From NCBI RefSeq assembly GCF_003634585.1, contig NZ_RBLG01000001.1, positions 1,178,001-1,242,000 of the forward strand: DNA of 64,000 bases, written 5' to 3'. Positions 34,953 to 46,595 of this stretch are shown here, piece after piece. The DNA is from Gillisia mitskevichiae. Its GTDB lineage: Bacteria; Bacteroidota; Bacteroidia; Flavobacteriales; Flavobacteriaceae. Below the pieces are notes generated by a model, which searched no databases, was not told where the DNA came from, and saw only the letters and a program-made list of their open reading frames with translations. Positions within the stretch are counted from its first letter, which is position 1; each line of letters begins with the position of its first letter. The position numbers were made by a program, and so were the translations under genes.

Positions 34953-35036
34953 CTTTGACGGGAATTGCTAGCGAAGTTTACACTGCTTTAGCATTTTTTA
35001 AGGGTAGCAATCAGTCAAATCATTCCCTGTAATCGT
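34953..35036 (-). promoter_or_regulatory. Candidate SAM-II-like riboswitch in the metK leader
   Basis: Read on the minus strand, the leader has AGGG, then TGATTTGACTGATTGCTA, CCCT, a run of As and TGCTAAAGCAGT. This order matches the SAM-II pseudoknot: P1 (AGGG/CCCT, extended by TTA/TAA past a bulged C), loop 1 starting TGATTT and ending in TTGC-like bases, and the conserved GCTAAA. P2 would be ACTG in loop 1 pairing with CAGT at the 3' end. Downstream, TAGCAATTCCC (34960-34970) can instead pair with ATTGCTA and GGGAAT of the aptamer, a possible switching strand. Base pairing and order are seen; the class assignment is by memory of the consensus. SAM-V, a relative, is an alternative. Confidence 0.55.
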
Positions 35037-35328: not shown

Positions 35329-35397
35329 ATGAATCAAGTAATGTGTAATATGTGTATGATGATGTTGGGGAAACCCGCAGCGTTCACTATTGCATAA
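35329..35397 (+). CDS. Met/Cys-rich leader peptide 1 of the met operon (22 residues)
   Basis: A 22-codon ORF beginning MNQVMCNMCMMM and ending GKPAAFTIA. Six methionines and two cysteines fall in the first twelve codons, far above chance. It starts just downstream of a consensus promoter and ends 23 nt before a strong intrinsic terminator. GCAGCG near its end (35377-35382) is complementary to CGCTGC in the 5' arm of that terminator (35425-35430), and TTGCA (35390-35394) to TGCAA (35416-35420). A ribosome stalled on the Met/Cys codons would leave these free to form an antiterminator; one reaching the stop would cover them. This is the classical amino-acid attenuation layout, here probably sensing charged Met (and Cys) tRNA. 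Confidence 0.85.
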   Translation: MNQVMCNMCMMMLGKPAAFTIA

Positions 35398-35419
35398 AAC
35401 TTAACTTATAAGAATTGCA

Positions 35420-35450
35420 AAAGCCGCTGCCAACCGCAGCGGCTTTTTTT
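35420..35450 (+). terminator. Attenuator terminator 1 of the met operon
   Basis: AAGCCGCTGC pairs perfectly with GCAGCGGCTT around CAACC, followed by T7. No protein gene precedes it except the 22-codon leader, so it is an attenuator rather than an end-of-gene terminator. Confidence 0.92.
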
Positions 35451-35512
35451 GTTTATATAAGTCAAAATGGAATTTTAAAAACGCCGATTAAATTCAGCTC
35501 GATCAAAATAAA

Positions 35513-35611
35513 ATGAAAATAACTTTCTCAAATATTTCAATAATGTGCTGCAATATGCAAATGTGTATGATGTACGCAACAAGCCGTTATTGCCAAAAAT
35601 TCAGGATGTAA
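35513..35611 (+). CDS. Met/Cys-rich leader peptide 2 of the met operon (32 residues)
   Basis: A second leader ORF, 32 codons, between attenuator terminator 1 and terminator 2. Its core reads MCCNMQMCMMY (residues 11-21), and the whole chain has seven Met and four Cys, including a Met as the last residue. An internal start at codon 11 is possible. TTGCCA at 35590-35595, inside the ORF after the Met/Cys cluster, is complementary to TGGCAA (35646-35651), which includes bases of the 5' arm of terminator 2. That again gives an antiterminator that a stalled ribosome would favour. The ORF is not a copy of leader 1 beyond the shared C-N-M-x-M-C-M-M-like core. Confidence 0.78.
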   Translation: MKITFSNISIMCCNMQMCMMYATSRYCQKFRM

Positions 35612-35636
35612 ATTAGTTTTATATAATTCAATTCCT

Positions 35637-35671
35637 AAATCCCTCTGGCAAATCTGCCAGAGGGATTTTTT
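35637..35671 (+). terminator. Attenuator terminator 2 of the met operon
   Basis: AAATCCCTCTGGCA pairs perfectly (14 bp) with TGCCAGAGGGATTT around AATC, followed by a T6 run. It lies 56 nt before the metY start codon. Confidence 0.92.
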
Positions 35672-40472: not shown

Positions 40473-40504
40473 TTGGTTTCTAACCAATTGTGTGGTTAAC
40501 TTTG
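40473..40504 (+). promoter_or_regulatory. Promoter of the second leader, with inverted repeat
   Basis: TTG (40473-40475), 21-nt spacer, TAACTTTG (40497-40504). An inverted repeat TAACCA-N6-TGGTTA (40481-40498) lies within the spacer and overlaps the -7 box, a possible operator. Confidence 0.7.
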
Positions 40505-40521
40505 TACTTTCAAATAAGGCA

Positions 40522-40590
40522 ATGGATAAAGTGATTCGTAATATGTATAAATTAATGTGGGAGCTACCTACAGCAGCTGCATTTGCGTAA
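40522..40590 (+). CDS. Diverged leader peptide 1' ahead of the second homoserine dehydrogenase (22 residues)
   Basis: A 22-codon ORF of the same length and register as met leader 1: MDKVIRNMYKLMW against MNQVMCNMCMMML, then proline at 16 in both. Nearly all extra Met/Cys codons have changed (M5 to I, C6 to R, C9 to Y, M10 to K, M11 to L), leaving Met at 1, 8 and 12. A consensus promoter precedes it and a terminator with an identical GCCGCTGC-CAACC-GCAGCGGC core follows. It keeps GCAGC near its end, able to pair with the terminator 5' arm. Either a re-tuned or a decaying attenuator; whether it is translated is unproven. Confidence 0.6.
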   Translation: MDKVIRNMYKLMWELPTAAAFA

Positions 40591-40612
40591 AACTTAGAAT
40601 ATAAGAATTACC

Positions 40613-40642
40613 AAAGCCGCTGCCAACCGCAGCGGCTTTTTT
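40613..40642 (+). terminator. Attenuator terminator 1' (conserved copy)
   Basis: AAAGCCGCTGC pairs with GCAGCGGCTTT around CAACC, T6. Stem and loop match the copy at 35420-35450, including the CAACC loop. Confidence 0.9.
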
Positions 40643-40666
40643 GTTACAATAAATTGAAATTAGAGA

Positions 40667-40774
40667 ATGGAACTTAAATTGGAAATAAGTAAACCAAATA
40701 TCATGTGGATTAGTAAGCATTATAATTTTTATATGCATACGAATCGCACCTCTTTCAATTATCAGAAATTTTAG
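40667..40774 (+). pseudogene. Degenerate copy of met leader peptide 2
   Basis: A 35-codon ORF at the place corresponding to leader 2. Its end (MHTNRTSFNYQKF) aligns with MYATSRYCQKF of leader 2, and the flanking DNA (ATAATTCAATTC, then CCCTCTGG) is shared. It has kept only three Met and no Cys, and the terminator after it is damaged. Probably a relic of duplication. Confidence 0.5.
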
Positions 40775-40801
40775 ATTTTATATTAGTTATAATTCAATTC
40801 T

Positions 40802-40837
40802 AAATATCCCTCTGGTAATTTTTCCAAAGGGATATTT
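40802..40837 (+). terminator. Degenerate attenuator terminator 2'
   Basis: AAATATCCCT pairs with AGGGATATTT and TGG with CCA, but one mismatch interrupts the stem and only TTTACTTT follows instead of a T6 tract. Likely weak or dead as a terminator. The 40433-40943 gap contains nothing else that I recognise. Confidence 0.5.
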
Positions 40838-40943
40838 ACTTTCTAAAACTTAAGTTAAAATATAAAGTTTGATAGAAAGTTTTAAAATTAAAGTCACACT
40901 TGGCTGAGTTTTTGAAAACAGCCAAAACCTAGTACATGGAATT

Positions 40944-42020
40944 ATGAAAAAGATTCATATTATACTCTTCGGAGTCGGGAATGTTGGAAGCACCTTGATA
41001 AATCAGATCTTGGATGCGAGAGAACAACTTAAAAAACAAAGCAAAATAGAAATCAATGTGCCAGTAGTGGTAAATTCTACTTCGGCCTTCTATGAAGAGA
41101 AGTGTGTGCGACCATCTTGGAGAACCGATTTTAAATATTTTGGTGTTCCATATACGGTAGATACGGTTTTAAAATATATCAAAAAAGAAGCTTATAAGAA
41201 TGTGATCATTGTAGATGCTACAGCAAGTAAAGAGTTTGTGCAAAATTATTCTACGTTTATAAAAAACGGATATGATATTGTAGCTTCTAATAAATCGGCC
41301 AATACATTATCTACAATTTTCTATAACAATTTGAGAAAGCAACTAAGGAAAAATAAAACTGAGTTTTTATATGAAACTAATGTAGGCGCAGGCTTACCAA
41401 TAATACAAACGCTGCAAAGGTTATATGCTTCTGGAGAAAAAGTAACTAAGGTAAGTGGTGTTTTTTCAGGATCCTTAAGTTATATTTTCAATCAATTTTC
41501 GCAACAAAATAAAATGTTCGATTCTTTATTGGCGGAGGCTGGAATAAAAGGACTTACAGAAAGAGATCCTAGAATAGACCTTTCAGGAAAAGATGTAGCA
41601 GAAAAGTTGTTAGTTTTAGCAAGGGAGTTACATATGAAGAAAGAACTTGTAGATGTAAAGATCGAAAGTTTAGTGCCTAAGCATTTAAATGGACGAAGTT
41701 CTGTTTCACATTTTAAAGATAACCTAAGTGATCTCAATTTGGATTTTGATGAATTGAAGGATGAATTAAAGCCAGATGAGGTCTTAAGACATATTGGCGA
41801 GTTAGATGTGATCTCTGGGAAACTAGAAGTAAAATTAGTAAAAGTAAAAACCAATACCTCTTTTGGAAGTCTGAAAAATGCAGAAGCTTCTTTTGAGATC
41901 TATACAGAATCTAATGGGCAATTTCCTATAGTAATTCAAGGGGCTGCCGCTGGAACAGGTGTAGCTGCAAGAGGAATTCTCGCAGATTTAACCAAGTTAG
42001 CAGAGAAATATAAAAAGTAA
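40944..42020 (+). CDS. Homoserine dehydrogenase, copy 2
   Basis: A 358-residue paralogue of the gene at 38161, collinear over its whole length. It shares ILFGVGNVGSTLINQILDAR, DATASKEFVQNYSTFI, ETNVGAGLPIIQTLQRL, GVFSGSLSYIFNQF and RDPRIDLSGKDVAEKLLVLARE; catalytic and cofactor motifs look intact, so both copies should work. It is not in the metX operon but alone, behind a diverged double leader derived from the met operon leader. This copy may therefore provide homoserine (also needed for threonine) when the met operon is off. A clear terminator follows. Confidence 0.94.
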   Translation: MKKIHIILFGVGNVGSTLINQILDAREQLKKQSKIEINVPVVVNSTSAFYEEKCVRPSWRTDFKYFGVPYTVDTVLKYIKKEAYKNVIIVDATASKEFVQNYSTFIKNGYDIVASNKSANTLSTIFYNNLRKQLRKNKTEFLYETNVGAGLPIIQTLQRLYASGEKVTKVSGVFSGSLSYIFNQFSQQNKMFDSLLAEAGIKGLTERDPRIDLSGKDVAEKLLVLARELHMKKELVDVKIESLVPKHLNGRSSVSHFKDNLSDLNLDFDELKDELKPDEVLRHIGELDVISGKLEVKLVKVKTNTSFGSLKNAEASFEIYTESNGQFPIVIQGAAAGTGVAARGILADLTKLAEKYKK

Positions 42021-46411: not shown

Positions 46412-46443
46412 CAAGACTTAAGTTCTTATTTTTATTTAAAAAC

Positions 46444-46545
46444 GTTATCAAGAAAGGTGGAGGGATAAGACCCTATGAGACCTTGGCAACCCTCCTTTTG
46501 GAGAAGGTGCTACATTCTACTGCATTTTATTCGCAGATAGATAAC
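46444..46545 (+). promoter_or_regulatory. SAM-I (S-box) riboswitch
   Basis: P1 is GTTATC (46444-46449) with GATAAC (46540-46545). Between them are AAGAAAGGTGGAGGGA, the CCCTATGAGACC segment, TTGGCAACC, AAGGTGCTACATTCTAC and a CTGC...GCAG P4 hairpin, in the order of the S-box consensus. It precedes metH-metH-metF by 50 nt. No strong terminator follows (only AAAAGAATTCTTTT and a T6 run), so the expression platform is unclear and may act on translation. Confidence 0.92.
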
Positions 46546-46595
46546 AAAAAGAATTCTTTTCACTCCTCTTTTTTGATACATATATACTTCATAAT

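Follow-up and report, generated by a model that had tools for sequence, protein, structure and literature searches.

The leader of a second homoserine dehydrogenase gene in Gillisia mitskevichiae is probably a re-tuned relative of the metY methionine/cysteine attenuator

In Gillisia mitskevichiae, a second stand-alone homoserine dehydrogenase gene (HSD2) is preceded by a leader which resembles that of metY and in which most of the Met and Cys control codons have been replaced. The question is whether this leader is still a regulatory switch and, if so, which signal it reads. The window analyzed is a stretch of 64,000 nucleotides (contig NZ_RBLG01000001.1, positions 1,178,001 to 1,242,000). It contains, in order, metK, the metY leader, metY, metX, HSD1, a metB/metZ-like gene, the HSD2 leader, HSD2 and rrf2, metK lying on the minus strand with a SAM-II riboswitch upstream. 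The metY assignment was above the NCBIfam cut-off, and metX and the second Cys/Met enzyme were below the equivalog cut-offs. Both homoserine dehydrogenase domains were present in HSD1 and in HSD2. A third homoserine dehydrogenase, fused to aspartate kinase (ThrA), is encoded elsewhere in the genome; ahead of thrA, an upstream ORF ending in AIYMFSITPMGYYI and a stop codon, or in a close variant, is conserved in 4/4 genomes (L050-L053) and may encode a regulatory peptide. The only Rfam matches at or above the gathering score in the window were SAM (46442-46547, plus strand) and SAM-II (34978-35034, minus strand). The HSD2 leader matched no Rfam family at that score, a weak Phe_leader match at 40525-40645 reaching 25.6 bits for a cut-off of 55. 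The SAM-I riboswitch precedes a methionine synthase gene, and one methionine gene cluster holds three kinds of RNA control.

Table 1. Features of the HSD2 leader and of its metY counterpart (positions in the window).
Feature	Position	Strand	Evidence or remark
Promoter-like TTGG...TAACTTTG of the HSD2 leader	40473..40504	+	sequence
ORF1 of the HSD2 leader, 22 codons, MDKVIRNMYKLMWELPTAAAFA and stop	40522..40590	+	in frame and of equal length in 7/7 HSD2 genomes
Antiterminator strand GCAGC in ORF1 (Ala-Ala codons)	40573..40577	+	predicted to pair with GCUGC 40619-40623, terminator 5' arm
Intrinsic terminator 1 of the HSD2 leader	40613..40639	+	core identical to metY terminator; 7/7 genomes
ORF2 of the HSD2 leader, 35 codons, Met/Cys mostly lost, eroding	40667..40774	+	not found in G009 and G013
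Hairpin 2 of the HSD2 leader	40801..40838	+	pairing of its 5' arm with ORF2 still possible (UUAUCA:UGGUAA)
Conserved TTGGCTGAGTTTTTGAAAA, within a small hairpin just upstream of HSD2	40900..40918	+	once per HSD2 genome (7/7)
HSD2, second stand-alone homoserine dehydrogenase	40944..42020	+	PF00742 and PF03447; tree
Tandem Met/Cys attenuator of metY, parental type	35329..35668	+	ORF1 35329-35397, terminator 35419-35447
Second half of the metY leader	ORF2 35513-35611, T2 hairpin 35637-35668	+	collinear with the HSD2 leader

As listed in Table 1, the HSD2 leader is collinear with the metY leader. All five parts named in the original prediction (promoter, short ORF, terminator, second ORF and second hairpin) were found, and the two leaders form a direct repeat of 121 nt with 76% identity, in which the core of the first terminator, CAACC included, is the same. 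The TTGG and downstream motifs were called promoter-like by comparison with the Bacteroidetes consensus. The residues M5, C6, C9, M10 and M11 of metY ORF1 correspond, as had been stated, to I, R, Y, K and L in HSD2 ORF1. Five of the seven Met/Cys codons are replaced in this way, whereas M8 and M12 are kept in all seven HSD2 genomes.

HSD2 was present in seven of the 16 Gillisia genomes searched. Alignment across these relatives, the check suggested with the original prediction, supported the homology of the leaders, and the ORF1 start codon was conserved in 7/7. ORF1 also keeps its 22 codons and the same stop, with no indel. Its peptide is near-fixed (V-I-[RC]-x-M-Y-x-L-M-W): V4, I5, M8, Y9, L11, M12 and W13 do not vary among the genomes, position 6 is R in five genomes and Cys in two (G007, G013), and K, T or R is found at position 10. 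Mean identity was 84% over ORF1 codons 2-16 versus 58% over the 60 nt after the terminator, and the mean pairwise identity of the region from -50 to the ATG was 79% (7 genomes). HSD2 synonymous sites differ by 37-75% among these genomes. Decay of ORF1 is ruled out by its conservation in 7/7 genomes: the codon content of the copy differs from that of metY and is conserved, not drifting, in agreement with the proposal of a re-tuned leader. In the same pairs as the synonymous comparison, ORF1 showed a pN of 0.132 and a pS of 0.282 (pN/pS ∼0.47), so the RNA is constrained in addition to the peptide, or more strongly than it, and the ratio is a weak sign of selection at the peptide level. An ORF1 nascent peptide which arrests the ribosome jointly with a small molecule such as a metabolite of the pathway, the peptide outweighing the codons, would fit a near-fixed V-I-x-x-M-Y-x-L-M-W lacking any single-residue run; it is nevertheless very improbable, since RNA pairing accounts for the conserved C-terminal Ala residues, the pN/pS signal is weak and the sequences are seven related ones only.

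Met and Cys codons were counted from codon 2 to one codon beyond the last Met. The seven HSD2 leaders contain 2-3 of them, below the range of all 36 metY-type leaders; of these, the 13 metY leaders from Gillisia have 6-7 and the other 23 have 4-7. Met at -4 from the last Met, present in 30/36 metY-type leaders, is kept in the HSD2 leaders; Met at -1, present in 34/36, is Leu in 7/7. It is only partly true that the copy retained just those Met positions which are invariant in the family, since position -1 is gone. Re-tuning to Thr, Ile or Lys was rejected: no enrichment was found, the residue at position 10 varies between K, R and T, and the control window contains at most one Thr. The conserved upstream ORF which ThrA of the threonine branch has for its own counts further against re-tuning of the HSD2 leader to Thr.

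To describe the RNA, 19 Gillisia leaders were aligned; that of G004 (one extra codon), that of G010 and the metY leader of G013 (contig end) were left out. RNAalifold predicted a hairpin within ORF1 plus the terminator. Standard pairs occupied 98.5% of the cells of the ORF1 hairpin, with 19 double-change cells versus 6.7 in shuffles, these counts being made on the alignment that predicted the hairpin, which favours it; in the control, the signal collapsed on sliding. Two of the codon replacements are compensated: C6R (TGT to CGT in codon 6) pairs with a GCA to GCG change (columns 22-72), and C9Y (TGT to TAT in codon 9) pairs with a C to T change (columns 32-63), a pair broken in the metY leader of G015. 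Most of the double changes distinguish HSD2 leaders from metY leaders, so that this covariation reflects few independent events. The codons of M8 and M12 each contribute bases to the hairpin. As Met and Trp have a single codon each and the ATGs take part in RNA pairing, sequence cannot prove sensing by the HSD2 leader.

Stalling was modelled by blocking the ORF to 16 nt from the P site, a footprint taken from E. coli, and by folding the free RNA to the terminator 5' arm. In metY leaders an antiterminator was predicted wherever the ribosome stalled at or before codon 12, and in HSD2 leaders at or before codon 13. Beyond these positions it weakens from codon to codon until little is left at codon 16, with a weak rebound (∼0.3) past codon 17 in metY leaders. 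With whole arms, stalls in Gillisia metY leaders remained competent as far as codon 12 or 13. In HSD2 leaders the limit was codon 13 or 14, so that M8 and M12 lie inside their predicted stall window, which contains these two Met codons in 7/7 leaders versus 4-7 Met and Cys codons in the metY type. For none of the 19 leaders did more than 3 of 300 shuffles match the antiterminator folding energy; the arm-pairing measure was weaker, 0 to 17 of 300 shuffles being as good. In 7/7 HSD2 leaders the own terminator arm was the best of five arm types, a type shared with the Gillisia metY leaders. The HSD2 leader thus presents four elements of an attenuator, namely a conserved ORF, a terminator, an antiterminator and a competing ORF hairpin. 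With two Met codons inside the stall window, and with all three alternative RNA structures retained, the proposed release from Met/Cys sensing is not supported.

The same folding bears on what is sensed. The one-codon shift of the antiterminator puts Trp13 fully within the stall window, and the HSD2 leader might instead sense the charging of several tRNAs together (Met, Trp, Tyr, Leu, Ile) or respond chiefly through Trp13. I5, Y9, L11, M12 and W13 are invariant in 7/7, and the stall window is one to two codons longer than that of the metY leader of the window genome. We regard this as unlikely, because W13 is found in 17/36 metY-type leaders and Y9, not exclusive to the HSD2 copy, in the metY leader of G015, so that both may be ancestral or structural; ORF1 contains no single-residue run, and homoserine is not known to have a pathway link to Trp. 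With similarly low probability, the cluster would contain a natural before-and-after pair of attenuators in which the Met/Cys signal of the parent was exchanged in the copy for a mixed or another charging signal, Trp13 having newly entered the stall window and compensating RNA changes carrying the codon changes. A Met reading of the HSD2 leader has, for its part, to face that Trp13 and Tyr9 are conserved to the same degree as the Mets, Trp13 also being within the stall window, that the -1 Met is lost in 7/7 HSD2 leaders and that the ORF1 pN/pS gives only a weak sign of selection on the peptide.

The parental type was examined in the family. At E <= 0.01 the leader model had matches in 116 of the 397 Flavobacteriaceae genomes, many weak matches being shorter than the model, and 23 loci outside Gillisia (L057-L079) with E below 1e-6 were studied. 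A Met/Cys-rich ORF was present at 23/23 and a metY-, metX- or metB/metZ-like gene nearby at 21/23, L065 and L075 showing only metK in the stretch examined. Of 22 family leaders, L074 excluded, 21 had Met or Cys as the codon at the edge of the stall window, the exception being L072. Pairing of each ORF tail with its own terminator arm summed to -183 kcal/mol versus -134 (sd 9) when arms were permuted (n=22), and 0/5000 permutations were as good (22 family leaders, L069 excluded; kinship ignored). These comparisons strongly indicate that the metY leader is a classical attenuator. The second Met/Cys-rich ORF of the tandem metY leader recurs in several other genera of Flavobacteriaceae. Among the matches listed for the 397 genomes (strict filters, stronger loci only), no HSD2-type leader was recognised outside Gillisia.

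The second half of the HSD2 leader is less well preserved. In metY leaders, ORF2 is also Met/Cys-rich and its tail can pair with an arm of the second hairpin (UUGCCA:UGGCAA). A pairing survives in 5/7 HSD2 leaders (UUAUCA:UGGUAA in the window); neither ORF2 nor the hairpin-2 arm was found in the HSD2 leader of G009 and G013. Most Met/Cys codons are gone from ORF2 of the HSD2 leaders, which shows only 67% identity. A broken T tract in the second hairpin, given as lost in the original prediction, was seen in this genome only; G003, G006, G007 and G008 retain a T run. The element just upstream of HSD2 (TTGGCNGAGTTTTTGAAAA, at most one mismatch) also persists in genomes that have lost the second attenuator, and occurs in 0/9 other Gillisia genomes. 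This erosion of ORF2, missing in 2/7, the T tract broken in this genome and the Met and Cys count under all 36 metY-type leaders would be expected of a leader heading for loss, whose structure lingers after sensing has gone and which allows a constant low HSD2 level by leak-through. Such an outcome is improbable in view of an ORF1 intact in 7/7 despite the synonymous divergence of HSD2, of the compensatory changes in the ORF hairpin and of the preserved pairing of the terminator arm.

Concerning the origin of the copy, HSD1 and HSD2 form separate clades (support 100/100 each) and the HSD2 stem branch is long. A clade of HSD1 and HSD2 only was rejected (p-AU 0.0013), and one including G015 was not (0.118). 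The HSD1/HSD2 duplication therefore predates the seven-genome clade, unless the cassette was acquired from elsewhere; a recent copying of HSD1 inside this clade is the hypothesis rejected by the first test. Furthermore, the copied leader is that of metY and not of HSD1: since it does not precede HSD1, leader and HSD1 were not copied as one contiguous unit, contrary to the segmental duplication proposed. In G006 the HSD2 cassette directly follows HSD1, without the metB-like gene.

Taken as a whole, these data lead us to favour, with some reserve, a conserved ribosome-mediated transcription attenuator derived from the metY Met/Cys attenuator, still Met-responsive but of reduced sensitivity. The HSD2 leader is probably a retuned switch and not a dead one, and re-tuning would most simply mean a less Met-sensitive, Cys-poor attenuator. 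When Met-tRNA charging is low, the ribosome would halt at Met8 or Met12 of ORF1 and leave GCAGC free to pair with the terminator 5' arm, allowing RNA polymerase read-through. Uninterrupted translation would cover GCAGC by the ribosome, so that terminator 1 forms and HSD2 is off. Because five of the seven Met/Cys codons are replaced, the leader would answer only a stronger Met shortage, and hardly Cys.

In attenuation of the trp/his/thr type, a leader ORF with control codons is combined with a mutually exclusive ORF hairpin, antiterminator and terminator. The HSD2 leader has the same exclusive structures, with a predicted stall window ending just before the antiterminator strand; unlike that type, it belongs to a Met/Cys leader in Flavobacteriaceae with two attenuators in series, and its run is thinned to two Met. 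The Salmonella mgtCBR leader likewise contains two short ORFs, each with its own attenuator, but these sense different signals, ATP and proline (PMC3641672), whereas both ORFs of the metY leader are of the Met/Cys type and the second one is being lost from the HSD2 copy. Clues of leader-peptide attenuation ahead of amino-acid operons were described in Flavobacterium psychrophilum, of the same bacterial family and mechanism class; the sections available name no met operon, duplicate leader or codon change (PMC9723704). Histidine leader peptides on the duplicated genes hisZ/hisS* of bacilli also tie an attenuator to gene duplicates, with a His codon run for both paralogues and, in the portion accessible, no description of control-codon thinning (PMC2965389). 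Neither the HSD2 leader system nor the family-wide tandem Met/Cys attenuator in Flavobacteriaceae was found described in the open-licence literature searched.

The metY and HSD2 leaders are homologous forms of the same switch, each conserved across species, and have 7 and 2 Met/Cys codons, respectively; their presence in one genome provides a natural paired test of the way in which control codons would set the sensitivity of an attenuator. The analysis also exposes a putative tandem Met/Cys attenuator throughout the family Flavobacteriaceae.
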